A stretch of DNA of 64,000 nucleotides from Calliopum simillimum. Taxonomy: Eukaryota > Arthropoda > Insecta > Diptera > Lauxaniidae. The position numbers and the translations under genes are program-made. Numbering within the stretch: the stretch's first letter is position 1; each line of letters begins with the position of its first letter. Positions 14,301 through 61,375 of this stretch are shown one piece after another. The notes beneath the pieces were generated by a model that saw only the letters and a program-made list of their open reading frames with translations, did no database searches and was not told the DNA's origin. The DNA lies in contig OX638369.1 in the NCBI GenBank assembly GCA_951812925.1, positions 434,001-498,000 on the forward strand, given 5' to 3'.

Positions 14301-17300
14301 AACTGGAATTTTTTTTTTTTTTTTTTTTTTGTTCCAAAGCATTTTTTGTTATCAGCAGGATCCAAGGATTCAAAAAAGTCGCGCGCACCTTGACATTTTA
14401 ACACTTTTGGAATTTTTACCAATCTAATGTACCTATAGGGATAATGATTTTTTAAACAATTCCAATATTTAAAGAAATATATTCTGTACATTATGCGCTG
14501 AAAATTTAAGAACACTCCCTGACTGCGAAACTATTCTTTCACAGGCATCTTCATCCCCAGTTTTACCAAGTCTGGCAATAAAATTCATTCTTGACAGCAA
14601 AACTTAAAATATTGAGTTAGATCGTGATATTTAGGCCGAAGCTTGAAACTTGTGAGTTAAAAGTAAAACCCATTTTTCTCTGCCTTTGTGAAGTGTGCAA
14701 ATTCAATGGAACCAACCGTTTTGTTGGCACGGTGATACGGAAGAAAATTATTTACGTATAAAAGTGTCGATAAAATCGGTTTCGATGAAAAAATTTGTTT
14801 TTTTTTTGCTGATTCAGAATCTGTTTTTGGCGAAATCCTATCAGATCCCGTTTAAAAGTTATACTAAAAATACCTTTTAGTAAGTATCTTAGGAATTCTT
14901 CAATTAAAAATATGTTGTTACATTTGCATAAGGTTACGAAGCTTCTGGGAGGTAATAGGGGAGGCCTAGGCTTACAAAAAATTGCACCCGGAGGGGGTCT
15001 AAAATGTACCCCTAAGAAGATATAGGGTTAAAACTGATTTTCTGCCTCTTTTCAGAAAAAAAATTTTCTAGGATCAACCTAACGTTTTAGAGAAAATATT
15101 TCTATTGCAAAGTTTCAGCTAATTGTAAGAGCGTTTAGATAGTGTGTATGGTTTATAGGGTTTAAAAGGATTTCGCAAAGTTCTGGACCTTTAAAATTGA
15201 TATTTTAATTTTTTCCCCATTTTTTTGATTTAATTGCCATTTTAGCATGAAAAAGGTCCTATTAATATAGCTTTTTGTAATTTTTTTTGAAATTTGCGTT
15301 AAATTTCCTTTAATCCGATAGTACATTAGTTATACCAATTTTTTTGATTGAGGTTAGACAACAATACTTTTCTATGTAACGCACGGGTTACTCGCATGCG
15401 TTGCGCTGCATATGATGTAGTGATGAGCAAACCAAGACCAAGACCAAAACCAAAACCAAGACCAAGACCAAAACTAAGACCAAGACCAACACCAAGACCA
15501 AGATCAAGACCAAGACCAAGACCAAGACCAAGACCAAGACCAAGACCAAGACCAACGCCAACACCAACACCAACACCAACACCAACACCAACACCAACAC
15601 CAACACCAACACCAAGACCAGCACCAACACCAAGACCAAGACCAAGACCAAGACCAAGACCAAGACCAAGACCAAGACCAAGACCAAGACCAAGACCAAG
15701 ACCAAGACCAAGACCAAGACCAAGACCAAGACCAAGACCAAGACCAAGACCAAGACCAAGACCAAGACCAAGACCAAGACCAAGACCAAGACCAAGACCA
15801 AGACCAAGACCAAGACCAAGACCAAGACCAAGACCAAGACCAAGACCAAGACCAAGACCAAGACCAAGACCAAGACCAAGACCAAGACCAAGACCAAGAC
15901 CAAGACCAAGACCAAAACCAAGACCAACACCAACACCAACACCAACACCAACACCAAGACCAAGACCAAGACCAAGACCAAGACCAAGACCAAGACCAAG
16001 ACCAAGACCAAGACCAAGACCAAGACCAAGACCAAGACCAAGACCAAGACCAACACCAACACCAACACCAACACCAACACCAACGCCAACACCAACACCA
16101 ACACCAACACCAACACCAACACCAACACCAACACCAACACCAACACCAACACCAAGTCCAAGACCGAGACCAAGACCATAGCAGTCTTGGTCTTAGTCTT
16201 GTCCTTGCACATTATGTCTTGGTCTTGGTTTGCTCATCACTACATCATATGCAGCGCAACGCATGCGAGTAACCCGTGTGTTACATAGAAAAGTATTGTT
16301 GTCTAACCTCAATCAAAAAAATTGGTATGACAAATGTACTATCGGATTAAAGGAAATTTAATGAAAATTTCAAAAAAAAATTACATAAAGCTATGAAGCA
16401 CTCCATGCCAAGTGTGCCAGGTTTAAATTTTTTTTTCTCCGATTTCGCTCAAATTTGGCAATATGGTAGATCCGGTGTGCAAGAACAACAATCCGAGAAG
16501 ATTTGGTCCTAGTACCATTTGTTGTTAAAATACAGGGTGTTGAAGTTGGCGTTTTTAGTCATTTTCATGAAAAGGGTGTTTTTTCAAAAATTTATAGCTT
16601 ACACTTAAGTTTGTAAATTGATTAATCTAAGTTACTGGTCCTATTTACATATTTTGAAATGTTCTTTTAATAAAAAAATATTTCTTGGTGAAAAAAATTT
16701 TTTTTTACCAAAATTTTTTACACTTAAAAATACTTTTGAATTTTGTTTAAAAAAAGCCCCCTACGATTTTTTTTAAAATGATGTATGACTCAAGATGGGA
16801 TTCAGACGCTAAATGGAAGTTTTTGGCTTTTGAACTCCCGCGGAAGGCAAAAATCTTTTTTTACTCAAGAGGAAAGCATCTTACGAAAAAAGTGTACTAG
16901 GCATAAAATGCTTAGAATCATCAAGGAAATAAGTGTGAAATTTTTTGGGAATTTTTTGGAAAGTTAAAAAAAAAAATTTTTTTTTTTGAGTAATTTTTGA
17001 AAAATTTCAAAAAAACAAAGTTTCAAAAATTATTCAAAAAAAAAAGTTTCCAAAAAAAAATCCAAAAAAATCTCACGTATTGCTTGGACGATTCTAAGCA
17101 TTTTTTGCCCTGTACACTTCTTTCGTTAGATGCTTTCCTCTTGAGTTAAAAAAGATTTTTGCCTTCCGCGGCACGGTGTGCCTTAACCCGTTCTAAATCG
17201 GACGTCGTAGCACATCAAATTTTTTTCCAGATTCTGTTTACTTATCGTTCAAATGATGTACAAAAAAATTTTCACTCGTGACTCCTCGACTAAATTTTGA

Positions 17301-20300: not shown

Positions 20301-23300
20301 AATCCGATTCCGGAAAACAATCACAAGAACCCTCTTGATAGCTCATTTTGAAGATAAAGAATGGTTTCAAATGAGTCGGTTAGTAAAAAAGAGCAGACGA
20401 ATTTCGTCCGTACTGTATACAACCTCAAATATAGCCGAAAACCGAGATTTTTCACTTTGAGTTTCATGGTGTGATTTTAAAGTTAACATAACTTTGCAGA
20501 GAAATATTGCAGATAAACATTTGATAGCTCAATTTAAAGCCAAAAGAAAGTACCAAATGTTTCTGGTAATAGAAATTCACAAAAAAATTTTGTGTGTCCT
20601 GCATATAACATCCAATATAGCCAAAAATCGTGTTTTCGCACTTTTTTAACTATTTAGGCAAAGATATCTCCAACAAAAAAAAAGATATCGTTATCGGTTT
20701 GATTGAGTTTTCAAGGAAAAAGCTAGGTCTAATAACTGTCATACCAAATTTTACGGCACAATATTACCTTATCTTGTTATATTTATAACTTCAAAAATAG
20801 GAAAAAAAGTGGTGTCCTGTAAATATTTATGTAAGGATATCTCAAAGTCCAGACGTAATAGAGCAATTCTAATACCGGAATCAGATTAAGCATTAAAAAT
20901 CACATCTGGAATGACTATTTATGTTTCTGGTTTTTGTTTGTGTTTTTCTTTAATACGAAAAAACCGATTTTTTTTTAAATAAATGGTGCGGAAACGATAC
21001 CTTTTATATGTATGCATGTATGTATGTATATATATATCCATATATATATATCACACATATATACATAAACAAGTATATATATGTACGTATATACATATAT
21101 ATGTGTACATAATATGTATATAAACACCGAGACATACTCAAAAATCGTTCAAAAAACTAAAATGTCGGAAAAAAAAAACGGCTGGACGTTCGATTTCGCG
21201 GTTTGCGGATTTAGATACTAGAAGGGTCCCCCAACATTATCCCTGAAAAAAATCGCGGGTGGTATTTCAAAAAGTTAAAATTTTTTAAAAACCACCGTGG
21301 GTACACTTGGCATGGAGTGCTTCCTATATTAATAGGACCTTTTTCATACTAAAATGGCCATCAAATTCAAAAAATGGGGAAAAAAAATTAAAACATCAAT
21401 TTTAAAGGTCCAGAACTGTGCGAAATCCTTTTAAACCCTATAAACCAGATATACTATCTGAAAGCTCTTACAATTAGCTAAAACTTTGCCATAAAAATGT
21501 TTTCCCTAATACGTTAGGGTGATCCAAGAAAATTTTTTTTTCTGAAAAGAGGCAGAAAATCAGTTTGAACCCTATAACTCCTTAGGGGTACATTTTAGAC
21601 CCCCCTCCGGGTGTAATTTTTTGTAAACCTATGCCTCCCCTATTGCCTCCCAGAAGCTTCGTAACCTTATGCAAATGTAACAACATATTTTTAATTGAAG
21701 AATTCCTAAGATACTTACTAAAAGGTATTTTTAGTATAACTTTTAAACGGGATCTGATAGGATTTCGCCAAAAACAGATTCTGAATCAGCAAAAAAAAAA
21801 CAAATTTTTTCATCGAAACCGATTTTAGCGACACTTTTATACGTAAATAATTTTCTTCCGTATCACCGTGTTGGATTAGTGCATGGCCCTATATAAAAAA
21901 TACAAATGAAAGTTTTCTTTGAGAATTATTAACTTTTAAACTTATTAATAAGGATAAAATTTTATCATTTTGAAATCATTTTTGTTAATTTTTAGGAGCT
22001 TTTAATTCAGCACAATGCAACGTGTAAGCAACATTTAACTTATTATGAATATGGTTTTTTATACCCTACACCCAGGTTATATTCACTTTGTCCTTCCGTT
22101 TGTAACGCAGAGAAGGAGGAGTGTAAGATATAGAAAAGTGTATACATTCTTGATCAGCGTCACCTCCTGAGTAAGATAACTCAATGAAATTTGGGGCACA
22201 GCCTTCGTCGTCAAAGTTCGCTCGTGGGATTGAAAATAAGCGAAATCGATCAACGGACACGCCTACCGCCTAAGCAAAATGTATATTCAAAGTTCAACTT
22301 TAGGAGTATTTTTCACGTCAATGCAACCATAATACACATAAATACTACGAATAGTAAGCGCAAGCTCTGAGAAAAACTAGGCGAGCTTGGACAAAATAGC
22401 GTGGTACCTTGGCAAAATCTTGAAAACGCTATACTTGAAGCGTTTTTTGAGATAATCAAACTAAATTTTACTCAGACACTAAAAACTATTACTGCAAACT
22501 CTGAGCAAAAACTGGGTGAAATCGGACAAGAAGGCGTAGCACCGACCATACAAGCAAAAGTTTCAAAATGATACACTGAAAGAGTTTTTTTAGATAGTCC
22601 AACTAAATATTACTCAAATACTAAGGACTCTAATAGCACGCTCTGAGCTAAAACAAGACGAACTCGGAAAAGATAGCGCGGCACCCCCATACAAGAAAAA
22701 TTTTCAAAATACTGTATTGTAGAGTATTTAATGTTTGGCCAGGCCAAAGCTTGCACCCTTACTAGTTTTTTGTTAGTACCAGCGATCTAACTGTCCTGAA
22801 ATCTGGTAAAATCACTCTTATATCACCAAAAATATTAAAAATTTATATTTGATGAGAAATTATCGATTTATTAATAAGTAAATATGTAATTTTCAATGAC
22901 AACTCACCAAATTGGACCAAAATCTAATAAGAAAAGTATAACGGTATCTCACTAGGGTTTAATCCTCAAATAAAATCGTTCAAAATGTGCACTGTGTTCT
23001 ACCCAATATAATACATACTTATATATTTTAGTTTTGGTCAAGTGGAATCACTAAGGTAGTTGCTATATGTCCATCAGCTGCCCAGACTTGCGAGCTTTTA
23101 TTTAATTTACAGAGAAATCTTACAGATACAAATGGCGATTGTATCTTAAAGATAAAAACTCGGGCTTGAAAAGTAGAATACGTGTAATTCTAATATTTGT
23201 GATATGCATGCAAATTGTTTTATAGTCCGAAACTGCTATGTGTGAATCGCTTCTTAAAAGAAAGTTTTTATTTTATAAAGTTTTCAAGTCAATGATGACC

Positions 23301-39099: not shown

Positions 39100-40156
39100 C
39101 AGGGGCGGATTAAGGTCATCTGCCGCCCTAGGCAGTTGCGATTTTGCCGCCTCAGACAGCAGCCTTATTTCTGTTATTGATTAATGAATTGACCTTGAAA
39201 ATGCATGAACTTGTACATTTGGAAAATATGTACAATTCAAAAAGGTGAAAGTGATTAATTAGAAGAAATTAATTCAAATGTTTTCAATGTTTATTTACAG
39301 TTGTACATGTTTTTGTAGCTCGTGTCACATGTTCTTACGTCGCGCTTTACGAAGCGCGAGGTCATTTATTATTTCATCGCACTCTATGTGACGCAAAACT
39401 TCTGCTTCTATAGTCAACAAGGCCAAAGAATTCAAGTGATTTTGTCCAATAGTTGATCTAAGATAATTTTTAACTCGTTTCAAACAAGAAAACGATCTCT
39501 CACCCTTGCAGTTTGTGACAGCTAAGGACAGAAAAATTCTGAAAGCAATGTCGACATTTGGAAAAACTACGTCAAGATCTTTACTTCTGAAAAAATTGAA
39601 AGTTTCAATGGGTGTGACTGTTTTCGAATCCAGATCACATGCAAGATATGCTTTGAAATGAATGAATTTATCATCCAATGAAGTCTCCAAATCTTCACTA
39701 AATGCTTCTTGTAAAATTTTGGCTTTTTCCCGGATGTTAGCATTATTTAAGTTTCTCAAATCAATCAAAACAGCAAATTTTTCGTAAACTTCTTCATATT
39801 TTCGGCACCTTTCCCGTAATTCAATCAAAAAATTGTCAAAGACGACATTGTATGTGTTGACTCTAAAGTCATCTTTCCCAAGCAATGTTACCTCCTCTGT
39901 TCTTGTTTCATCGTCGTAAACTTTTCTACTTTAACCCTCTTCTCGAGTGTTTTGTATTCTTGGTTGACTGACAAATCAAATGCTTTTCTCTCGAATAAGT
40001 CAAAATCATCACGTGCATCACACACAATTTTTAGGAGACTTTTGTACAATTGAACTACTTTTATAGTCTCGCACTCAAAAGTGACATTTTGTCTAGTGTA
40101 AACGGTCGAAATTTGCCGCCCCTAAAAATGTTGCCTATTAGGTAAATCCGCCCCTG
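39100..40156. mobile_element. hAT element, 1,057 bp, perfect 8-bp duplication
   Basis: Ends CAGGGGCGGATTAAGG and TAAATCCGCCCCTG, flanked by TACATAGG on both sides (39092-39099 and 40157-40164). Inside, on the minus strand, is the C-terminal part of a ZMYM/TTF-type hAT transposase with a frameshift. The perfect duplication suggests a fairly recent insertion of an already deleted copy. Confidence 0.92.
39325..40110 (-). pseudogene. hAT transposase, 5'-truncated and frameshifted
   Basis: The downstream 186-codon frame ends with VFPNVDIAFRIFLSLAVTNC, GERSFSCLKRVKNYLRSTI and NSLALLTIEAEV, the hAT dimerisation domain found in ZMYM1-like 'zinc finger' transposases. Upstream residues (FECETIKVVQLYKSLLKIVC and onward) are in another frame, with the slip near 39930. 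The BED/TTF finger and most catalytic residues are missing, so it is inactive. Confidence 0.85.
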
Positions 40157-40198: not shown

Positions 40199-43100
40199 GT
40201 GCAGGCAAATTAGGTAAAAACAGGTATTCATTTCTAATTTTGTTGAACATGCACCGATTTTGATCCGACAGGGCTCATTTTGTTCGTAATAAAATTTTAT
40301 ACAAAATCAACATATTGGTTTTTTCCGGCCTTTCCCCAAAATTTCTTTAGTTCCCCGTGAACCCTCAAAATCGGATAAATTCAATAAATCTGTTCTAAAA
40401 TGCTTTAAAATGGAAAATTATGCTATTCACGGGGTTCTCTAGATTGCTGAACCCAAATATGATGTTGGAAAATAAAAAAACCAAAAATGGCGCCCGAAAA
40501 ACTGCGTACATACCCATTTTAAGCACCAAAAATGGGAAAAAATCGTTACAGGGGGTTTTAGCCTAAAAGTCTTGTTACATTGAATGAATTTATACGGTCG
40601 GTGTGGGATATTGTTTTTTATACTATAAAAAGTAAAGTTTACTAAAAATTTTTTTGTGTTTTTGAATTGTTTATTATTTAAGTAATAACTATAAAAAGTT
40701 AATACAACTTAAAATTAAAAATATTTGTAACATTTTGCAAACCATTTTTTCTAAACTAATTTGAGGTCGCTGAACACGAAAAACGCATTTATTTTTTTTT
40801 CCTTGGGGTAGTTCCCGAGTTATTCGATAATTTATATTTTCGTGATTATAGCTTCATATACATCAATATATTTCTACGACGCCAAGCCCGATCAATTTTA
40901 TTTTTCCACATTGACAAAGAATGACTAATGGCGCTTCCAACAAGTATACCAATGATTATGCTTGGAACAAAATTGACTGAGTTATAGCAGAAAAAAGTTT
41001 GAAACTTCACAAATTTTTGAAATTTTTCACATCATTTTCAAATGAAACATTTTGTTTTTGGCATATAATTTTTTTAAAGACTTGTTATACCCTACACCCA
41101 GGGTATATTCACTTTGTCCTTCCGTTTGTAACGCAGAGAAGGAGGCGTGGCAGGTATAGAAAAGTATATATATTCTTGATCAGCGTCACCTCCTGAGTCG
41201 ATTTAGCCATGTCCGTCTGTCTGGCTGGCTGGCTGGCTGGGTGGCTGGCTGGCTGTGTGTTGAAATACACTTTTTGGGAAAACTGAGCAAGATAATTCAA
41301 TGAAATTTGGTACACTGCCTTCATCGTCAAAGTTAGCTCGGGGGATTGAAAATGAGCAAAATCGGTCAACGGACACGCCTACCGCCCATACAAAAATTAT
41401 ATTCAAAATGCAATTTTAGGAGTATTTTTCACGACAATGCAACCACAATACATATAAGTACTACGAATTGTAAGCGCAAGCTCTGAAAAAAAAACTGAGC
41501 GAATTCGGACAAGAGGGCGTGGCACCTCCCATATAAGCAAAAGCTTCAAAACGCTATACTGAAAGCGTTTTTTGAGATATTCGAACCAACTTTGACTTAG
41601 ACACTAAGAATTATAAATAAAAGCTCTCAGCAAAAATTGGTTGAAATCGTACAAGGGGGCGTGGCACCTCCCATATAAGCAAAAGTTTCAAAATGCTATA
41701 CTGAAAAAGTTTTTTGAGATAATCCAATTAAATTTCACTCTGACACTAAAAACTATAAATGCAAGCTCTGAACAAAAACTAGGTGTACTCGGACAAGAGG
41801 GCGTGGCACCTCCCATATAAGCAAAAGCTTCAAAACGCTATACTGAAAGCGTTTTTTGAGATATTTGAACCAAATTTGACTCAGACACTAAGAATTATAA
41901 ATGAAAGCTCTCAGCAAAAACTGGGTGAAATCAGACAAGGGGGCGTGGCACCTCCCATGTAAGCAAAAGAATCAAAATGCTATACTGAAAGAGTTTTTTG
42001 AGATAATCCAACTAAATTTCACTCTGACAATAAAAACTATAAATGCAAGCTCTGAACAAAAACTGGGTGTACTCGGGCAAGAGGGAGTGGCACCTCCCAT
42101 ATAAGCAAAATTTTCAAAATACTGCAGTGTAGGGTATTTATTTTTTGGCCGGGCCAAAATTTACACCCTTACTAGTTTTTTAGTAATTTTATTAAATGGC
42201 GCATATAATTGCAAACATTTTAAGCCTATGTTGAGCAAAATCGAATGAAATTTCCAAAAGATGTTAGGGTTTTAGTGCAATAGGAAAATTTCGATTTCTT
42301 TCAAAAATTAATATTTTTGATACAATCCGCAATGGTCTTCTACAGAGAATGATTAAAAGTTACTTAAAACATCTTTAAAGTGTTCAATGAGTGTAGGGTA
42401 TCATATCTGGAGGCTGAAAAATTGGATCTGTTGACTCAGGCCGAACATTTCGAAAATTCTCACGTCTTCTTTATTGCACTAAAACCTTAATATCTTTTGA
42501 AAATTTCATTCAATTTTGCTCAACATAGGCTTAAAATGTTTGCAATTATATGCGCCATTTAATAAAATTACTAAAAAACAAGTCTTTAAAAAAATTATAT
42601 GCCAAAAACCAAATGTTTCATTTGAAAATGATGTGAAAAATTTCAAAAATTTGTGAAGTTTCAAACTTTTTTCTGCTATAACTCAGTCAATTTTGTTCCA
42701 AGCATAATCATTGGTATACTTGTTGGAAGCGCCATTAGTCATTCTTTGTCAATGTGGAAAAATAAAATTGATCGGGCTTGGCGTCGTAGAAATATATTGA
42801 TGTATATGAAGCTATAATCACGAAAATATAAATTATCGAATAACTCGGGAACTACCCCAAGGAAAAAAAAATAAATGCGTTTTTCGTGTTCAGCGACCTC
42901 AAATTAGTTTAGAAAAAATGGTTTGCAAAATGTTACAAATATTTTTAATTTTAAGTTGTATTAACTTTTTATAGTTATTACTTAAATAATAAACAATTCA
43001 AAAACACAAAAAAATTTTTAGTAAACTTTACTTTTTATAGTATAAAAAACAATATCCCACACCGACCGTATAAATTCATTCAATGTAACAAGACTTTTAG

Positions 43101-44432: not shown

Positions 44433-44448
44433 GTAATTTGTAATTTTT
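44433..44448 (+). repeat. left target-site duplication of the ribozyme element
   Basis: GTAATTTGTAATTTTT, identical to 46705-46720. It is AT-rich but a perfect 16-base match placed exactly at both edges of the tetrameric block. Confidence 0.75.
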
Positions 44449-44573
44449 TTTTTTTTTTTTTTAATTGAACTTTTAGTCATATATTTGCCAAGATCGATTT
44501 ACATATAAATCTATCAATGCATTTTTCTAACACATAATTATGACAAATCAAGGAACGGATTAAAAACACGGCT

Positions 44574-44620
44574 ATAGTGACATATGTTTCGTCTTTCGCC
44601 ACAAAGACTCATCAGACTAT
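44574..44620 (-). ncRNA. type I hammerhead ribozyme, copy 1
   Basis: On the minus strand: stem I strand ATAGT, core CTGATGA, stem II GTCTTT/AAAGAC with loop GTGGCG, GAAA, stem III ACATATGT, then the cleavage C and the second stem I strand ACTAT. All conserved core bases are present. Same sequence as the other three copies. Confidence 0.85.
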
Positions 44621-44709
44621 TTTTGTTGTAATTATAATTATATTTATTTTACTAAATTAATTATAATTGAAAAATTGCAAGTTTGAAAACTTTTTGTGGT
44701 TTTTGGTCT

Positions 44710-44777
44710 GGGCGGGAGTCGAACCAAGGATCTCCAGGTTGGTAGCAGCAGTCGTTACCACTACACCAGCCTTGCCC
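44710..44777 (-). promoter_or_regulatory. tRNA-like Pol III promoter, copy 1
   Basis: 68-bp tRNA-like unit on the minus strand: GGGC end, A box TGGTGTAGTGG, B box GGTTCGACTCC, and GCCC closing the acceptor-like stem, then A. The parent tRNA cannot be assigned. Confidence 0.8.
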
Positions 44778-45124
44778 TGCTGCGAAGCCGACTTTTGCCA
44801 GTTTTGTTTGTGTGTTAATACGTATTGATATATCATAATTGTTGTTTGTGTTATTTATTGATATTTGGTATAGTTGTTCCTTTGGAACAAATTCAATACC
44901 GATTGCAGGTGTTTCCACCTTATCAGGGCGTGTTCTCCCAAATAACTTTTTAAGAATTTTTTTTAAGTGTGTTACTTAATGACATTTTATATATAGAAAA
45001 TTGATTTTTTTTTAATTGAACTTTTAGTCATATATTTGCAAAGATCGATTTACATATAAATCTATCAATGCATTTTTCTAACACATAATTATGACAAATC
45101 AAGGAACGGATTAAAAACACGGCT

Positions 45125-45171
45125 ATAGTGACATATGTTTCGTCTTTCGCCACAAAGACTCATCAGACTAT
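45125..45171 (-). ncRNA. type I hammerhead ribozyme, copy 2
   Basis: Identical core and stems to copy 1, lying 551 bp further on, so a transcript of this tandem pair would contain two cleavage sites and could release one monomer. Confidence 0.85.
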
Positions 45172-45260
45172 TTTTGTTGTAATTATAATTATATTTATTT
45201 TACTAAATTAATTATAATTGAAAAATTGCAAGTTTGAAAACTTTTTGTGGTTTTTGGTCT

Positions 45261-45328
45261 GGGCGGGAGTCGAACCAAGGATCTCCAGGTTGGTAGCAGC
45301 AGTCGTTACCACTACACCAGCCTTGCCC
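45261..45328 (-). promoter_or_regulatory. tRNA-like Pol III promoter, copy 2
   Basis: Same 68-bp unit as copy 1 with intact A box and B box on the minus strand. Confidence 0.8.
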
Positions 45329-45398
45329 TGCTGCGAAGCCGACTTTTGCCAGTTTTGTTTGTGTGTTAATACGTATTGATATATCATAATTGTTGTTT

Positions 45399-45470
45399 GT
45401 GTTATTTATTGATATACCAAATATCAATAAATAACACAAACAACAATTATGATATATCAATACGTATTAG
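45399..45470. repeat. inversion junction of the ribozyme element
   Basis: GTTATTTATTGATAT meets ATATCAATAAATAAC across ACCAA, the palindrome centre. Fifty bases later (45468) the plus copy jumps from CGTATT into AGAAAAATGC, skipping most of a monomer; the joined sites share TTA. The right half therefore begins with a truncated unit. Confidence 0.8.
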
Positions 45471-45770
45471 AAAAATGCATTGATAGATTTATATGTAAAT
45501 CGATCTTTGCAAATATATGACTAAAAGTTCAATTAAAAAAAAATCAATTTTCTATATATAAAATGTCATTAAGTAACACACTTAAAAAAAATTCTTAAAA
45601 AGTTATTTGGGAGAACACGCCCTGATAAGGTGGAAACACCTGCAATCGGTATTGAATTTGTTCCAAAGGAACAACTATACCAAATATCAATAAATAACAC
45701 AAACAACAATTATGATATATCAATACGTATTAACACACAAACAAAACTGGCAAAAGTCGGCTTCGCAGCA

Positions 45771-45838
45771 GGGCAAGGCTGGTGTAGTGGTAACGACTAC
45801 TGCTACCAACCTGGAGATCCTTGGTTCGACTCCCGCCC
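45771..45838 (+). promoter_or_regulatory. tRNA-like Pol III promoter, copy 3
   Basis: Plus-strand copy: A box at 45780-45790, B box at 45823-45833, GGGC/GCCC ends. It has one substitution relative to the others (GACTACTGC for GACTGCTGC). Confidence 0.8.
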
Positions 45839-45927
45839 AGACCAAAAACCACAAAAAGTTTTCAAACTTGCAATTTTTCAATTATAATTAATTTAGTAAA
45901 ATAAATATAATTATAATTACAACAAAA

Positions 45928-45974
45928 ATAGTCTGATGAGTCTTTGTGGCGAAAGACGAAACATATGTCACTAT
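45928..45974 (+). ncRNA. type I hammerhead ribozyme, copy 3
   Basis: ATAGT, CTGATGA (45933-45939), stem II to 45957, GAAA, stem III ACATATGT, predicted cleavage after C45969, then ACTAT pairing with ATAGT. Stem III has only two or three pairs within one molecule but is fully self-complementary, so two ribozymes in a dimer could share an eight-pair stem. Confidence 0.87.
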
Positions 45975-46323
45975 AGCCGTGTTTTTAATCCGTTCCTTGA
46001 TTTGTCATAATTATGTGTTAGAAAAATGCATTGATAGATTTATATGTAAATCGATCTTTGCAAATATATGACTAAAAGTTCAATTAAAAAAAAATCAATT
46101 TTCTATATATAAAATGTCATTAAGTAACACACTTAAAAAAAAAATTCTTAAAAAGTTATTTGGGAGAACACGCCCTGATAAGGTGGAAACACCTGCAATC
46201 GGTATTGAATTTGTTCCAAAGGAACAACTATACCAAATATCAATAAATAACACAAACAACAATTATGATATATCAATACGTATTAACACACAAACAAAAC
46301 TGGCAAAAGTCGGCTTCGCAGCA

Positions 46324-46391
46324 GGGCAAGGCTGGTGTAGTGGTAACGACTGCTGCTACCAACCTGGAGATCCTTGGTTCGACTCCCGCCC
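46324..46391 (+). promoter_or_regulatory. tRNA-like Pol III promoter, copy 4
   Basis: Plus strand, identical in length and boxes to the minus copies. About 90 bases downstream is the last ribozyme. Confidence 0.8.
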
Positions 46392-46480
46392 AGACCAAAA
46401 ACCACAAAAAGTTTTCAAACTTGCAATTTTTCAATTATAATTAATTTAGTAAAATAAATATAATTATAATTACAACAAAA

Positions 46481-46527
46481 ATAGTCTGATGAGTCTTTGT
46501 GGCGAAAGACGAAACATATGTCACTAT
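46481..46527 (+). ncRNA. type I hammerhead ribozyme, copy 4
   Basis: Same 47 bases as the other copies, with predicted cleavage after C46522. This is 553 bp from copy 3, defining the monomer length. Confidence 0.87.
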
Positions 46528-46704
46528 AGCCGTGTTTTTAATCCGTTCCTTGATTTGTCATAATTATGTGTTAGAAAAATGCATTGATAGATTTATATGT
46601 AAATCGATCTTTGCAAATATATGACTAAAAGTTCAATTAAAAAAAATCAATTTTCTATATATAAAATGTCATTAAGTAACACACTTAAAAAAAATTCTTA
46701 AAAA

Positions 46705-46720
46705 GTAATTTGTAATTTTT
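46705..46720 (+). repeat. right target-site duplication of the ribozyme element
   Basis: Perfect copy of 44433-44448. The last element base before it ends CTTAAAAA, and inside the element this continues GTTATTTG, so only GT is shared by chance with the duplication. Confidence 0.75.
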
Positions 46721-49791: not shown

Positions 49792-50548
49792 CATTCAGAT
49801 ATGCAAAGCAAAATTGAAGACCTTGTCTTGGAATCACAAAAGGCCGGCCTAAAAATCAACGTAACCAAGACTAAAAGCATGAAGTTAAACGCAAACAAGG
49901 ATGACATCACGTTTAGAGCTGGCAGTGATGACATCGAAAACGTCGATAGCTTCACGTATTTAGGCAGCATTATCTCCATGGATGGTTGAGCAAAAGAGGA
50001 TATTAACTCAAGAATAGCAAAAGCAAAAGGCGCGTTTGCTCAACTGAACAAAATATGGTCTCCACCCGTTATATCCACTAAAACGAGAGTGCGCATTTTT
50101 GATTCGAATGTGAAATCGGTTTTGTTATATGGGTGCGAAACATGGCTTGTTACTGAACAAGCTGCAAGTATTCGTCAACAAATGCTTAAGGCGTATACTA
50201 AAGATTTGGTGGCCTCGCACTATATCAAATGCCGAGCTACACCAAAAATGCAATCAGAGGGCTATAGCAAACGAGGTCAAGCTGCGCAAATGGGGATGGA
50301 TTGGTCACACTCTCCGGAAACCACAAAGCGAAGTTTGTCGCCAGGCTCTTGAGTGGAATCCACAAGGCAGTAGAGCACTTGCTAGACCCAAAACCAACTG
50401 GAAAAGGTCGCTGGAAAAGGAAATTCAAGAATCGGGAAAGTCGTGGCAAGAGATCAAAGTCATCGCAAGGGATCGCAACGAATGGAGATGTTTCATATTG
50501 GCCCTATGCTCCTCCTACACTGTGAAAAGTACTAAGTCTGTTTTTTGG
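49792..50548 (+). pseudogene. non-LTR retrotransposon RT, C-terminal part, decayed
   Basis: The frame from 49792 reads AGLKINVTKTKSMKLNAN, VDSFTYLGSIISMDG, an in-frame TGA (49987-49989), then VKSVLLYGCETWLVTEQA. After a frameshift near 50160 it continues VFVNKCLRRILKIWWPRTIS, LRKWGWIGHTLRKP, and WNPQGS. These are hallmarks of the region downstream of the RT catalytic domain in RTE-like elements. The endonuclease and the catalytic part of the RT are absent. Clade assignment is from memory and tentative. Confidence 0.85.
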
Positions 50549-51355
50549 AGTCTTGAGATATTTGGTAAGGGCGATATAAAAATAGGCACACAAAATCGGT
50601 TTAGTCCCTGGTTCTATACCTAAATATCAACCGATTTGCTTGACTTTTTTTTAAAGGTTGTGAGGAAGAGCAGTGCATAGGATAACACTTTTTTACAAAT
50701 AGTTCTATCGCCCGACAATTTAGTCTGTCGTGTGAACCAGCACTTACTGATATTTTGAATGTTTTTGATACTTTTGGACTTTTACCGATATTTTGGATGA
50801 TTTTTCGATATTTTTAGACCTATACCGATTTTAAATAAGGATATCTTCTAAACTATAAATCACACGAAAACAATTCGGACGTCATTCTAGTAGTAACCCG
50901 TTATCGAAATATTTGCAAAAAATTATCTTTGTGACCTTTGACCTTCAATAAAGTTTTTTAGCTCATACGGGATCAATGGTTACTTTTGAAATTTTGTTCA
51001 TAATGGTATATCTAAGGTCTGCACTGATTTTCAACTTTTTTCTAACTTGCGAGATGTATCCTTTTTTTTGCCCTTGATAAGGTGTTGCCCACAAAATTTC
51101 ATTAAAATAGCTGATATAAATTGCGAGACATAACGTTAAAAGGTGGTGCAACGCCGCTCGTTCAATCACTCCTTAACATAGCTATGAACCGTCCGGAGCA
51201 CGAAAGAAATACATCCTTGTAAAAGGGTTACGTTCAGTCCAGTCGAGTTACATCCACTATTGTAATTAGCTCCCTTAAGGGGACTCCCGAACAAGAACTA
51301 GATAAAAATATAAAAAAAACTCTTCGTTGCCAGCAGAGTATAAATGTTCAAAGGT

Positions 51356-54665: not shown

Positions 54666-57600
54666 CTAGTAATCAAAATAGGATTGCATCAAAAGCATAA
54701 ATTAAAGTAAAACATTGAAACCTACCTTTTTATCTTCCAGTTTATCTAAAAACTGTGCTGCAGAATCTTCCTGGTGGAAGCGTATGTATCCCTCTTTATC
54801 TCCTTTGCTGTAGTCAATAAAGGCTACTTCCCAGTCACCCTCGACTTTCTCAACTGCCTCACGTAAAATTTCACGAGTTACAACATCGCTGGCACCTTCG
54901 AAAAATAGAACTGCACCCTTAGGTAATTGTAATTTTTCTTCCTCAACCTTAACCTTTTTCTTTGAATGTGCTTTCATCTCCTCTTTCTTCTGGTTAAGAT
55001 ACATTTCCTGCCATTTTCGTATTAGTTCACGTTCTTTGAAGAGAACCTTTAATATGTCGTAAATTTATTTATTTAAATGTCACATTTTAAAAATAAATCT
55101 AAAAAGTACGGAGAAACAAGGCGTAGGTGTAAAGGCGCAGACCAATTACGCGTTAAGGTGTAACAGTTAGACGATAATGGGACCCCGACATCTCTAAAAA
55201 AAAGCGCATGTGCACAAAGTTCATGCTCCAAAAAATTTAACAAAAAAAAAATAAAATACACGACAAAATCGACAAAAAATTTAGTTTTACAGGATTTATT
55301 TGAATAGATTGAAGGATAAATCACAGGACACCTTTTTATTAAAAGTCGAGAATATATCGATACCTTAGAGCGCTATAGTCCTATCTCCACTTTTTGCGAT
55401 TTTGAGATTTTTGCAGTTATGGCAACATTGTAGGCTTCTTTATCGTGTGGAAAACTGTGTGATGTCAAAATACCACTATAACACCAAAATATTCGAAAAT
55501 TAAAAAAAATCCTATCTCCAAACTGTAATTTTTTCAAGAGCGCTACTGTCCTATCTCCCACTGAATATTCAAATAAGTCACATTTTTAAAAAAATTCTTC
55601 GTTTTTACGCGTCTTCTTCGCGTTTCATGACTTTTTGCGACATTTTAGTGAACAAATTAGGTTATAACCAAGGGTCCACTCTTGTTTGTCGGAACCAAAA
55701 ATTAAAAAAAAAAAAATTGGTTTTTTCGTGTTTTCTACGTGTTTCATGACTTTTTACGACATTTTAGTGGAAAAAATTCAAAAAATGTACTAAATACGTC
55801 GTTTATTTTAATAGTTGTAAAATTTTATATAAGGGCAAAAGTAATGACATACCATAAATTGGCTGGAATTTCGTTAGAAGTAAATAAAATTGGTTAGAAA
55901 CATTAAATTATGTTAAAATATACTATAGGTAAAAATATTGCATATATCGTTATATCAAAATAGCAGCCAATCCTAAATAACCACTGTTTGAAATCTTCTT
56001 TTTGCATTTCCCAACAATTGGAAAAATGGAGATAGGACTATAGCGCTCTAAGGTATCGATATGTATATTTTATTTAAGTAAGAGTTACTCAGAGTCTACA
56101 ACTATCATTTAGTCATCTGTTTCACCTTGAATTACACTGTGGAACAAAATTTGGTCGCCAATAGTTTACTCGGATCTGACGCTGCGGGGTGAAAATATAG
56201 GCCAAAATAAAAGACCATTTGGCTCAGTTTGTTTTCGAGAAAAGGCCGTTTGAAATTTGCACCTTAAATTATGTGGTTTTTTCGATATACAGTAGACCCC
56301 GCTTAATTGACCCCCTTTTATTTTAACTTCCCCGGATAATTGAACTAAAAAAAGCCTAGTGAAACAGTCCTCATTGAAAAAGGCACCCAAATCCCCTGTT
56401 AATTGATTCCCGCTTAATTGGTTTCCCCGGTTAATTGATAGGAAAAAAATTATTTCCAAATGAAAAATACATACAAAATACCCCTTTTAAAAAATCAACA
56501 ATATTAAAAGTAACAAAAAATTTTACTAATGGAAAAATCTGAACAGTTTTCAGTACAGCCCAATAAAGATTTTAATGCTACTCCGAACTAGCTTTGGCAA
56601 AGGCAAACCCGTTAAGGTGTCGTCTTTCGTAAAGTCCATGGTGAAAAATCCTCAGAAAACTCAAAAGGAGCAAATGATTTCAATAACTTAGTTCTTCCCG
56701 GATTATTAAAGGGTTTTGATCAAGTTGATATTTTTGACGCCGACGAAAGTGGATTGTGCTTTACATACTATGTCCAGAAGAGGTGATGGCCTTAAAGGTT
56801 TTAAATAGTCAAAATCACGTATGTTTTTTTTTTTTATTTCTGATGCCACAAGAAATTATAAAAAAATTTTAAAATTTGACGCTGAATAACTTTTTATACG
56901 CACACAATTACAAAATTGTCCCAACATTTTTCTACAGAAGTAATCGTTAGCGAGATATTTGCAAAAGAACTGATTTTCGCAACCTTTTCAGGCCGATCAT
57001 GTGCTCAGGCATCCGATTCAGCACGGCAGACTGATGGACTCGTAGTAAACATATCCTAAGCTATCGATTTCCAAATACATTTCCATTACACCTAGTTTTT
57101 CCAAATTTTTATGCTCAGCTCTAAGTCTACTACGCACATACCCGTATTTTGAGTTAATTTTCTTTATTTTATTTTAAGGTGAATTGAAGTTCCATTTATG
57201 TACCTAATGCACTTTTTAATACAATATACATTAGAGGTGTTTTAAGAATGTATGGAGATTCTTAGTAACAACATTTTGATACTTGACACCCCTCAATTTT
57301 GTGAGGTTGAACAAAAAAATGAGTTTGCAAAAAAAATGTTGGGGGTGGGGTGAGGGTAAAGGTTGGCGCATCGAGGTCAAAGGTGTGAGAAAAAGAGAAA
57401 AAATTTACATACAGCCCTTCAAATATTTAGGGGTCACCTCTAGAGGGGTCAAATGTATGACCGACCCACATTATTTTTCTCCCACCAAAATTTTTACCAA
57501 GCATACTTACCCCCTATCTCTAACTCCTAAGGGGGCTCCCATACAAAATTGACATTTTTAGGAAATTGACCCCCACCTCTACCTGGGTGCCCCTAGAAGG

Positions 57601-60390
57601 TTCTAATGTATAACTGGTCCCTAATATTTTTTTCTCCCCAACATTTTTTCCTGACATACTTACCCTCTATCTCTGACTCTTTAGGGAACTCCCATACAAA
57701 ATAGATGTCATAGACATAAAAAATATGGAAAGGAAATCGTCAAATAGGCCCATAACTGCCCTGAAGTCACACCTAGAGGAGTCAAACATAAGACCGACCC
57801 CCATTAGCCCCCCTCCACAGTTTTTTCTCAGCATACCTACCCCCTATTTCTAATCCTTAAGGGGGCTCCCATACAAAGTTACTGTTTTATATAAAATGCC
57901 CCAACTGCCCTAACTGGCCCACGGGTATCCATAGAAGGGTTAAATGTATGACCGACCCCCATTATTTTTTCGCGACCTATATTTTTTCGCCACATACTTA
58001 CCCCTATTTTCAACCCTGAAAGGGGCTGCCATACAATTTTTTTTTTTTAATAAATTTTCCTAGAAATAATGGGGGTCGGTCATACATTTGATCCTTCTTG
58101 GGGTACTCATGGTCTAGTTATGGTCCAGTTAGGGCAGTGGGGGCGGTTTTTAAAAAAACCGTTACTTTGTATGGGAGCCTCCTTAAGGATTTGAAATAGG
58201 GGGTAGGTAAGCTGTGAAGCTTTGAAGGGGGCATAATGGGGGTCGGTCATACATTTGACTCCTCTAGGAGAGACTCCTGGGCAGTTATGGGCCTATTTGA
58301 CGATTTCCTTTCCATATTTTTTATGTCTATGACGTCAGTTTTGTATGGGAGCCCCCTAAAGAGCTAGAGATAGGGGGTAAGTATGGTGGGAAAAAATGTT
58401 GCGGAGGAAAAAATATTATGGGCCGGTCATACATTTGACCCTTCTAGGGGCACCTTGGGAGTGGTGGGGGTCGATTTCCTAAAAAATTTCAATTTTGTAT
58501 GGAAGCCCCTTAGGGGTTAGTGATAAGGGGTAGGTATGTTTGGTAAAAATGTTGGGGGAGAAAAAAAAATGTGGGTCGGTCATACATTTGAACCCTCTAG
58601 AGGTGGCCCCTCTTGTTGGGCCGCAAGTAAATTGCTTCTCCTTTTCTCTCATCTTTGACCTCGATGCGCCAACCCTTACCCTCAGCCCACCCCCAAAATT
58701 TTTTTTGCAAACTCATTTTTTTTTCCAACCTCACAAAATTGAGGGGTGTCAAGTATCAAAATCCAAAATTCGTGCACTAAAACACCCCTAATATACATAC
58801 ATATTTTTGTATCCGTTACCTCCTTATGGAGCTTATGACTTTATGAAATTCTTAATGCTTTGAACATATAAAAAAACCATTAAATTTTTTCTATGCTTAA
58901 TTGACTCACTCGATCAATTATCCGGGATTCTTTTAATTGATCAGTCAATTAAGCGGGGTCTACTGTATCTCGTAAGTAATCTGAGTTTTATTGCATTTAG
59001 TGGTGGGGTTTTGTTTGTCTCGTCCATATCTACTCCTTCACTACCAAATCAGTCCTTTTGGATGCATTTTTGGCAAGTTAGAGCACAAAATTCCCAAAAA
59101 AAAGTGACATTATGACATTCGGCTCAATAGAAATCACCCGAGTGGTAGATTTATGTACAGGTTTTGCCTTTAGACCTATAGCCGAGATCCATACGAACAC
59201 TTTGATATAATATATTTAGCATAGGTCTAGAAATAATGTGCCTACTCATAAGCGGCATGCACAATTTCCTATTTTTTTTTTTTTTTTTTTTTTTTTTCAA
59301 ATTTTGAATTAGGATATCTCCTGAGTTATAAGTCGTACGAAAACAATTCAGGGGTAATTTTTATAGAAAATTTTATAAGCTACAATATTGCTTGCAAATG
59401 TTTTTCTCTAAACGTAACCGTTCAAGAGATATTTGTAAAAAACTGATTTTGGACGCCATTTTTCCAATATAGCGACGCGAGCGAACACGTCTCGAGGTAG
59501 CAAAGTTGAAATTCTGAAAGATCACATAGAAATCTATAAAATAACTCATTTGCACAAATCCCGCAAAACTTTTCAGGTAACATCATTTTATTCTCCCAAA
59601 TGATTGTACTATTTCTTCAATTTTCTCGTATTGCCTTGATATCTCGAAAACGAAGCGATATGAAAAAATTTTATGTAATCCTTTAGACTTATTTTGTATC
59701 GGAAATCGAAGAATCCCCACGTACCTTTTCTTTCTCAATAAATTCCTGCGCTTGTTCCTTTTTCTCAAATGTTACGAAAACACTACCTTTGAATTTGTAT
59801 GTCTTTGTTGGTTTGTCGAGATACTTTCGCATATTAATATTAAGCACTTTAACGTAAGGACTAAAAAAGTCAATTAATTCCGACATCTCTACATCGAGTG
59901 GAAAACCTTTAGCGTAAGCAGTACGTGACATAATCTCCTTGCGTCGTTCTTCGTTGTGTTCAGGAATTGGTCGCTCTGGATGACGACGAATTTTTTGCTT
60001 GTCGTCGCTTATTTCCAAAAGACCTTCATCAGACTTGATCAAAGCATTGACTATGACTTCAGTGTCGGTGCTTAGTGCAGCCAATCGCTTGAATGTGAGC
60101 AGCACCGAAATGGGAACCCAACCTTCATCTTTTGAAATCTGTTCAATTAAAAATTTGTCGCGATTTAGATTAGCATCACCGAAATAGTATTCCACCTGAC
60201 GAACGATGTTGGATTCCAACTTAGATGATTGTTCCTCAATAACTGGAGATTTTTGCTCCACAGTTTCTATCTTTTCAGATACTGATGTTTCTGTTTTCTC
60301 ATTTTTGGCGTCTTTTTCATCGGCGGTAACGGACTCTGTTTTTTCTTTTTCGTCGCCAATGGCCAGTGGTTTCTCTTCAATATCTGACAT
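54456..60390 (-). CDS. La: La RNA-binding protein gene (complete, three exons)
   Basis: La binds the UUU-3'OH ends of new RNA polymerase III transcripts and protects and chaperones them in the nucleus. Exons 59725-60390, 54726-55046 and 54456-54665 join in frame to 398 residues, close to the roughly 390 of the Drosophila protein. An acidic/Lys-rich N-tail is followed by the La motif (VRQVEYYFGDANLNRDKFLI, residues about 65-140), RRM1 (SRTAYAKGFPLDVEMSELID, about 155-230), a second RRM-like domain (GAVLFFEGASDVVTREILRE, about 260-330) and a basic tail. Start at 60390: MSDIEEKPLAIG. Intron 1 is 4.7 kb and full of transposons; intron 2 is 60 bp. Confidence 0.95.
54726..55046 (-). CDS. La: La exon 2 (second RRM-like domain)
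   Basis: 107 codons, phase 0, starting VLFKERELIRKWQEMYLNQK after an ATTAAAG acceptor and ending LDKLEDKK before GTAGGT. The middle encodes LPKGAVLFFEGASDVVTREI and DYSKGDKEGYIRFHQ, the atypical RRM2 fold of La. Confidence 0.94.
55354..56062. mobile_element. 709-bp inverted-repeat element in La intron 1
   Basis: Ends ATATCGATACCTTAGAGCGC and its inverse, continuing inward TATAGTCCTATCTCC. A further inverse-related motif (GAGCGCTACTGTCCTATC) occurs at 55539. The exact edge is unclear because TA steps occur at several places in the palindrome. Noncoding. Confidence 0.75.
56560..56790 (+). pseudogene. Tigger/jerky-type transposase remnant
   Basis: The frame around 56700 reads GLLKGFDQVDIFDADESGLC, then FTYY. 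This corresponds to the first catalytic Asp motif (the 'DIFNADETGL' type) of pogo-superfamily DDE transposases. Frames before and after are broken; no other catalytic motif was found. Confidence 0.7.
57231..58791. mobile_element. 1.56-kb palindromic element nested in the Tigger-like element
   Basis: Arms of about 0.75 kb (TTGACACCCCTCAATTTTGTG near 57282 against CACAAAATTGAGGGGTGTC near 58733) around a centre near 58035. Each arm contains several degenerate units of about 170-200 bp with GGTCGGTCATACATTTGAC and CTCCCATACAAA. Ends TTAGAGGTGTTTT and AAAACACCCCTAA. Noncoding. Confidence 0.8.
59725..60390 (-). CDS. La: La exon 1 (La motif and RRM1)
   Basis: 222 codons, starting at the ATG at 60390 and ending FIEKEK before GTACGT. 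Residues 1-60 are charged (EKTESVTADEKDAKNEKTET). The La motif follows, with YYFGDANLNRDKFL and GWVPISVLLTFKRL, then RRM1 with YAKGFPLDV (RNP2-like) and KFKGSVFVTF (RNP1-like). No upstream in-frame ATG is evident near the start. Confidence 0.95.
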
Positions 60391-61375
60391 GATGCGTTCG
60401 AGTGCTTTTTAAAATATGACTACAAATTAAAGAAATTCTTTACCGCGACTCTGTCTTATTTCAGATTGTTTCACGAATTTGGCGGAGCACGTTTTACTTT
60501 AACCTCTATCTTATTGTGACATTTGCTGAAAATGCCTTTTGTTTGCCAGTGATGTCGTTTTGAAATCAAGGGAGTATATTTTTGCAATTAGCCCTGCAGG
60601 CATGGTTGAATTACCCTGGTTGCAGCGATAACAAATGCTGCTTCTTCTTAAACTACGAAAATGTCAAAATTTTCTAGTCGTTTGACAGATAGTAAGCCAA
60701 GATCAGGGTTCCATTTTTGTTTATTTTGACAAATTGCCATAACCATTGTTATTAAATCATGGCCTGCAGGCGAGCAAAAAAATTTAACAACTTCTTTGGG
60801 ACTTTTTGAATTAGGAGATGCCACCGGCCAATTTTTTGGGTTAAACTATCGAAAAGCTTTTTATATGGAAAACTATCCTGGTTAGTACTTAATCATTAAT
60901 CAGAATTCAGTTGACCATTCATCTAGTTCTCCAGGCAAGTTTGAATGTGATAAAAAATAAAAAAATCATGATAATCACAGATCCACTCTCACAAAGTTTA
61001 CCTGGATGAGTCATATGTCATTTACTGCTAATTGATTTGGCATGAAACGAATCGCAACACTATTTTCTTGATTTGTCATTTTTCAAAACTTGCTACCGCA
61101 TTATTAAGCTAACCATTTTTGAATATTATTGTAGAAAGAATTATTAATGAATATAATATAAAGCAAACTAAAGAATTAATTAGCGGTAGGGACTGCGAAA
61201 GCCATTTTCCGGGTTTAAGATAATTTATCAAACGAGATTTCATTCGAGCCTGCGACAAGTATGGTTCAAAATTGTGTTCCACGGACTGGTGCAATGCGGA
61301 TGTGGTTGAAACTGTAATTATTACTTTGTAGGAATGCTAAATAAATGCATGAATATTGAAAAAAACACATAAACA

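Follow-up and report, generated by a model that had tools for sequence, protein, structure and literature searches.

A block of hammerhead-bearing repeats at positions 44449-46704, the one such locus in the 64-kb window (the whole stretch of DNA that was analysed), is probably the product of one twin-primed insertion, during which the reverse transcriptase of a LINE-type element, starting at the two ends of a staggered break, would have turned the RNA of a SINE-like retrozyme, either circular or multi-unit and uncut, into DNA. The probability that we attach to this reading is roughly two in three, and we infer it from the anatomy of the block. Seen directly at the locus are a target-site duplication, an A-rich end at a TTTT/A site, two inverted halves, short overlaps at the junctions, and near-identical repeat copies.

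Repeat units and insertion footprint

The repeat unit measures about 552 bp (551 and 553 bp in the two full units), has a GC content of 31%, and carries one 47-nt hammerhead and one pair of tRNA-type A and B boxes, with four of each in the block; in every unit the hammerhead lies 90 nt downstream of a 68-bp tRNA-like segment. A sequence-only reading had described four monomers of about 552 bp, each with a hammerhead and boxes, and the four exact hammerhead copies, the intact boxes and the measured unit lengths confirmed this description. The layout that it implied proved incomplete. Self-comparison ruled out a direct array of four units and resolved two inverted pairs, with two minus-strand and two plus-strand units arranged head-to-head, together with an internally deleted extra unit in the plus half (45413-45675). 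Within each half the units follow one another in direct tandem order, with ribozyme spacings of 551 and 553 bp, while the halves are mutually inverted, and the inverted arms of the block (459-639 bp) are 99-100% identical.

Unit positions are numbered from the first base after the cleavage site of the reference unit (Table 1). Mapping of the block onto this unit showed that each half passes the cleavage site twice. Across 2,254 aligned positions, a figure that includes the 553 of the reference, the copies show two substitutions relative to it and variation in the lengths of A runs. All four hammerheads have the same sequence, and the four 68-bp segments are identical except for one base. We interpret the skip of 288 unit positions in the second half as the result of a template jump. 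The two halves terminate close to one unit position (268 and 260), for which we have no explanation beyond coincidence. Two short hairpins, GGTG-GAAA-CACC and TTGTTCC-AAA-GGAACAA, lie outside the ribozyme at unit positions 213-258 (for example, 46182-46227).

Table 1. Features of the repeat block and of its borders, in window coordinates
Feature	Position	Strand	Details
Target-site duplication, left copy	44433..44448		16 bp; exact match to 46705-46720
Target-site duplication, right copy	46705..46720		7 of its first 8 bases agree with the unit where the second priming would have occurred
19-nt T run (A-rich sense end)	44444..44462	-	5 nt from the duplication; starts at the unit's internal A9 tract
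Non-inverted half	44449..45415	-	Sense strand minus; read as first cDNA, spanning 1.7 units, from 268 to the A tract at 125 (unit positions)
Inverted half	45413..46704	+	Read as second cDNA: from unit 260 to 313, then from 49 past the cleavage site twice to 185; 2.3 units
Inversion junction	45413..45415		3-nt overlap TAT; flanked on both sides by the arms of a perfect palindrome (49 nt, centre 5 nt)
Internal deletion junction	45467..45469	+	288 unit positions skipped (tRNA-like part and hammerhead); TTA overlap
Reference unit	45970..46522	+	553 nt, cleavage site to cleavage site
Full unit	44579..45129	-	551 nt; equals the reference except for 2 A in an A run
Type I hammerhead	44574..44620	-	Predicted cleavage after GTC ending at 44579
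Type I hammerhead	45125..45171	-	Predicted cleavage after GTC ending at 45130
Type I hammerhead	45928..45974	+	Predicted cleavage after 45969
Type I hammerhead	46481..46527	+	Predicted cleavage after 46522
tRNA-like segment	44710..44777	-	A box 44758-44768, B box 44715-44725
tRNA-like segment	45261..45328	-	A box 45309-45319, B box 45266-45276
tRNA-like segment	45771..45838	+	A box 45780-45790, B box 45823-45833
tRNA-like segment	46324..46391	+	A box 46333-46343, B box 46376-46386
T4 and T5 runs	46412..46431	+	T4 46412-46415, T5 46427-46431; after the B box and before the hammerhead; might act as Pol III terminators

The 16-bp target-site duplication is flush with both ends of the block. As a control, 17,739 random pairs of 25-bp flanks were taken at the same distance, none of which had 14 or more bases in common and five of which reached 13. 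At the sense (minus) end of the block the A9 tract of the unit is extended to 19 A, including the five contributed by the target, and the nick on the priming strand reads ATTTTT/ACC, which fits TTTT/A with the second A missing (TTTT/AC here versus the TTTT/AA nick motif of human L1; PMC2912911). At the opposite end, the target sequence GTAATTTG agrees with the unit sequence GTTATTTG at seven of eight bases and could have served as a second primer; the frequency of such a match by chance was 0.0012 among 200,000 random pairs, and the match stops past these eight bases (8/16 overall). Neither the duplication nor the A-rich sense end nor the inversion junction had been recorded in the sequence-only reading.

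The features that mark a twin-primed LINE-type insertion, namely a duplication of 10-20 bp, an inverted 5' part, and microhomology at the outer and inner junctions, were all found at the locus. To our knowledge, human L1 is the only element for which twin priming is well established. The same set of features in 5'-inverted L1 copies has been attributed to twin priming (PMC2912911, PMC4245944); duplications of full-length L1 peak at 14-16 bp, with 5'-inverted copies similar to them (PMC2912911) and ranging from 10 to 20 bp (PMC4245944), and 5'-inverted L1 copies depend on microhomologies at their junctions (PMC2912911). In the accessible part of one study, 5' inversions were reported for human L1 in human cells and for one Nimb-2_DR insert, and none with ZfL2-1 (PMC4245944). 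That such inversions are seldom seen beyond human L1 speaks against the preferred reading.

The rest of the window contains several other features. A nompC exon was recognised by a match to the NOMPC chain 5vkq_A over 476 residues; with the La-domain frame described below, it points to a likely insect origin of the DNA, perhaps from a fly. Of the 44 open reading frames of at least 90 aa, 10 were searched against Pfam, so a LINE may be present among the others. A frame at 39325-39930 (minus strand) contains a hAT transposase C-terminal dimerisation domain, and frames at 54705-55064 (RRM) and 59692-60408 (La domain and RRM), also on the minus strand, are perhaps exons of one La-type gene. Two overlapping frames lie at 49990-50623 (plus strand), one with DUF6451 and the other without a Pfam family; the latter appears similar to the C-terminal end of LINE proteins. 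Furthermore, the hexamer ACCAAG recurs about 125 times at 15431-16178, where several frames are open on both strands, and arrays with a 142-bp period are located at 22438-22710 and 41476-42120 (77% and 82% matches within the arrays); their consensus units look alike by eye and may represent one dispersed satellite.

Hammerheads, A and B boxes, and the question of Pol III transcription

A structural descriptor (core, helix I of at least 4, helix II of at least 3, and a closed helix III) detected four hammerheads in the window, all inside the block, versus a total of two in 100 dinucleotide shuffles, and it identified a type I core with its cleavage triplet and three helices in all four units. 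The looser pattern CTGATGA...GAAA matched nine times; three of these matches, at 60012, 63496 and 63507, lie outside the block and were not accepted by the descriptor. The covariance-model check that had been proposed with the sequence-only reading gave a divided answer. At Rfam gathering cut-offs there were no matches in the window, whereas in E-value mode RF00163 matched all four hammerheads with 21.5 bits, which is lower than its gathering score of 34, and with E values of 0.057 for 2,401 bases and 0.0024 for a 101-base stretch. The best-matching Rfam hammerhead model was the type I model, and the alignment followed the type I consensus layout, including a consensus helix III, ACGCGCGU, that is an 8-nt palindrome like ACAUAUGU in the present element. 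Matches to miRNA-like Rfam families at 45368-45468 were rejected; they scored below their gathering scores and correspond to the palindromic inversion junction.

The predicted structure consists of a helix I of 5 bp followed by a 7-nt bulge and four A-U pairs, a helix II of 6 bp with the loop GUGGCG, and a helix III in which 2 bp close a 4-nt loop. Four pairs (-5.5 kcal/mol) are predicted to be possible between loop II and the bulge of helix I (AGCCGUG), a region that engages in loop-loop contacts in natural hammerheads (PMC7229834). In the folding energies, which leave loop-loop contacts out, the full canonical hammerhead fold was the minimum in none of the folds made (54-nt, 79-nt, 120-nt and circular): the 54-nt strand formed helices I and II with part of the core paired, and the three others favoured different structures, with the canonical fold at -1.7 versus -8.9 kcal/mol at 79 nt, a gap of 7.2. 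Helix III had a folding energy of +2.4 kcal/mol within one hammerhead and of -7.0 kcal/mol between two. Because helix III has 2 bp in a single hammerhead and 8 bp between two, cleavage is predicted to proceed better in a dimer than in a monomer, and the same preference has been described for axolotl hammerheads with a helix III of 1-2 bp (PMC7229834).

The combined A and B box pattern was found four times in the window, once in each of the four units, versus no occurrence in 100 shuffles. ARAGORN at default settings predicted no tRNA genes in the window and none on 45701-45900. At a 50% threshold it gave one 'tRNA-???' of undetermined type at 45759-45844 on the same segment, and at 40% with introns allowed it gave at least 27 implausible tRNA calls. 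The Rfam tRNA model had no match up to an E value of 10. By both ARAGORN and Rfam the 68-bp segment is without a clear cloverleaf, and it appears to be tRNA-like mainly through its boxes. These boxes probably represent the head of a tRNA-derived SINE; the characteristics of such elements that were found at the locus are the A and B boxes themselves and a LINE-type insertion with a duplication and an A-rich 3' end.

The proposal of a tRNA-type Pol III promoter in the sequence-only reading held with respect to the boxes, which are intact in all four units, and met an obstacle in the T4 and T5 runs that precede the ribozyme. In unit coordinates the B box occupies 407-417, T4 begins at 443, T5 at 458 and the hammerhead core at 517; the sense strand has 12 A runs and four T runs of at least four bases. 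T runs of such length are the usual stops for Pol III. Since T4 and T5 are located between the B box and the hammerhead, a standard Pol III RNA would be without the ribozyme, and transcription of the ribozyme by Pol III from the A and B boxes is doubtful. Either Pol III reads through these runs, or the RNA that carries the ribozyme comes from another promoter, or the boxes survive as a remnant of a SINE ancestor.

Proposed copying of the RNA and alternative explanations

In the proposed course of events, a transcript across repeated units would be produced and cleaved by its hammerheads, probably best as dimers, to a 552-nt monomer, which a host RNA ligase would close. The T5 end of the nicked target would then anneal to the A9 tract of the unit and be extended by reverse transcription over 1.7 units, while the other target end would anneal to GTTATTTG on the same RNA and be extended the opposite way over about 2.3 units, with 288 positions skipped once. 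Finally, the trinucleotide TAT would join the two cDNA ends.

A cut linear monomer was excluded as the template because each cDNA is more than one unit in length and contains two passes of the cleavage site. The template is likely to have been either a circle that was copied round more than once or a multimer left uncut; a single template molecule is favoured by how nearly identical the successive passes are. Primed copying of a retrozyme circle into tandem cDNA, by LINEs or Penelope-like elements (PLEs) in animals, has been proposed (PMC7229834), and a circular template would be expected to yield cDNA longer than one unit (PMC7761336). A more specific version, in which both chromosome ends cut by a LINE were primed on one ribozyme-made RNA circle of 552 nt and each was extended through more than one full turn of it, as a frozen rolling-circle form of target-primed reverse transcription, is put forward tentatively, with the odds against it. 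If it were true, a hammerhead SINE would have been turned into a circular-template transposon driven by LINEs.

A sub-case of this reading, which we place a little short of even odds, gives the ribozyme no part: the template would have been no circle but a linear transcript running uncut through several units of a tandem array in the genome, and LINE machinery would have treated it as it does other A-rich RNAs. Uncut multimers may exist, given that the hammerhead is predicted to be weak as a monomer, with its 2-bp helix III and with other folds favoured, and priming at the internal A9 tract requires no circle. This explanation, however, needs a long RNA, several units in length, from a very homogeneous array, as the copies are only two substitutions apart, and there is no such array within the window.

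It is also possible, though unlikely, that the inversion was inherited, with an already inverted master copy transcribed through and inserted by target-primed reverse transcription from one primer. The same duplication and A-rich end would be expected from such an event, and twin priming in human is rare for elements moved in trans, for which 5' inversions number one Alu and 4 of 477 SVA in the accessible data (PMC2912911). The seven-of-eight agreement of target and unit precisely where the inverted half meets its outer flank (chance frequency 0.0012), however, would be expected only if the second target end had acted as a primer there. Snap-back hairpin copying of a single cDNA was rejected as a source of the inversion; the plus half has the 288-position deletion 54 nt from the junction, which is absent from the minus half, and the central ACCAA was not copied from the minus half.

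The inverted arms of 459-639 bp at 99-100% identity would suit a foldback DNA transposon or a long-inverted-repeat satellite that contains hammerheads by chance, but we regard this as very improbable, as the two arms stop at different places in the unit (125 and 185), an A run forms one of the ends, the 16-bp duplication lies at a TTTT/A site, and the units keep a direct order inside each half. An assembly artefact, in which a foldback read linked a tandem array of direct repeats to the reverse complement of that array, could account for the perfect 49-nt palindrome at the junction and is just as improbable, since inverted host flank would then be expected, whereas the flanks have only the 16-bp duplication in common and the halves are unequal in length and content.

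Twin priming on a circular or multi-unit RNA remains the preferred reading, under which the locus bears the footprint of a LINE-type endonuclease together with two primers on such a template. This copying step, if true, would help to show how such RNA circles spread. The question of which enzyme spreads animal retrozymes becomes one of a genome count, in this insect, of hammerhead repeats with TTTT/A sites, duplications of 10-20 bp, starts at A tracts, and lengths that are not whole multiples of the unit.

Comparison with known elements

Self-comparison and a profile search found no other copy of the element in the rest of the window. Searches with four patterns in viral contigs, with one pattern in genome contigs and with blastn in phages, none of which is an insect collection and all of which may lack the genome that the window comes from, also returned no copy. 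Among the matches listed from the open-licence literature, neither a twin-primed retrozyme nor a fly element of this make-up was found. Insect retrozymes as a class are already in print (PMC7229834).

The assignment to retrozyme-like elements in the sequence-only reading is supported by the type I core, the GC content of 31%, the direct tandem units of each half, and a duplication of 16 bp, in contrast to the 4-5 bp that LTR-type elements produce. Animal non-LTR retrozymes likewise have one type I hammerhead per unit, direct tandem order, low GC content, and duplications of more than 4 bp (Cervera and de la Pena 2020, PMC7229834). Their units are typically 170-400 nt, versus about 552 nt here, although the discussion of the same paper mentions circles from 150 to more than 1000 nt (PMC7229834). 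The tRNA-type A and B boxes of the present element have no counterpart mentioned for animal non-LTR retrozymes in the accessible text of that paper (PMC7229834). The footprint here is that of LINE-type twin priming, whereas for animal retrozymes the spreading enzyme was left open, with LINEs or PLEs named and PLEs called a strong candidate (PMC7229834). The plant LTR retrozyme differs in having a type III hammerhead and a 4-bp duplication, in contrast to type I and 16 bp here.

The comparison with the schistosome Sm-alpha element, made in the same reading, is an apt one, as the same combination of parts is present there (PMC2770079). Sm-alpha carries a hammerhead and is SINE-like, with similarity to SINEs derived from tRNA-Gln (PMC2770079), and in both Sm-alpha and Sj-alpha, likened here by description, a type I hammerhead is joined to a SINE-like element related to tRNA (PMC2770079, PMC8490949). 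W36.2_W001, which is strongly similar to Sm-alpha, is 335 bp long versus about 552 bp for the present unit, and the relation to tRNA-Gln-TTG in that system came from tRNA prediction, whereas here no tRNA model matched at standard settings (PMC2770079, PMC8490949). Among insects, the pDo500 repeat of Dolichopoda cave crickets also has a hammerhead-like structure; it is a satellite DNA, and the accessible text of its paper contains neither 'polymerase III' nor 'retrotranspos' (PMC2808323).

Helenus TRIMs resemble the present element in being small non-autonomous retroelements with a tRNA-derived segment, but they have LTRs, a PBS, a PPT, and duplications of 4-5 bp as opposed to 16 bp, with no hammerhead described in the accessible portion of the source (PMC10886601). 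A close parallel to the insertion itself is the 5'-inverted human L1, which has an inverted 5' part, a duplication of 10-20 bp, a TTTT-type nick, and microhomology at the outer and inner junctions; its template is a long linear mRNA, whereas in the block described here each cDNA exceeds the repeat unit (PMC2912911, PMC4245944).
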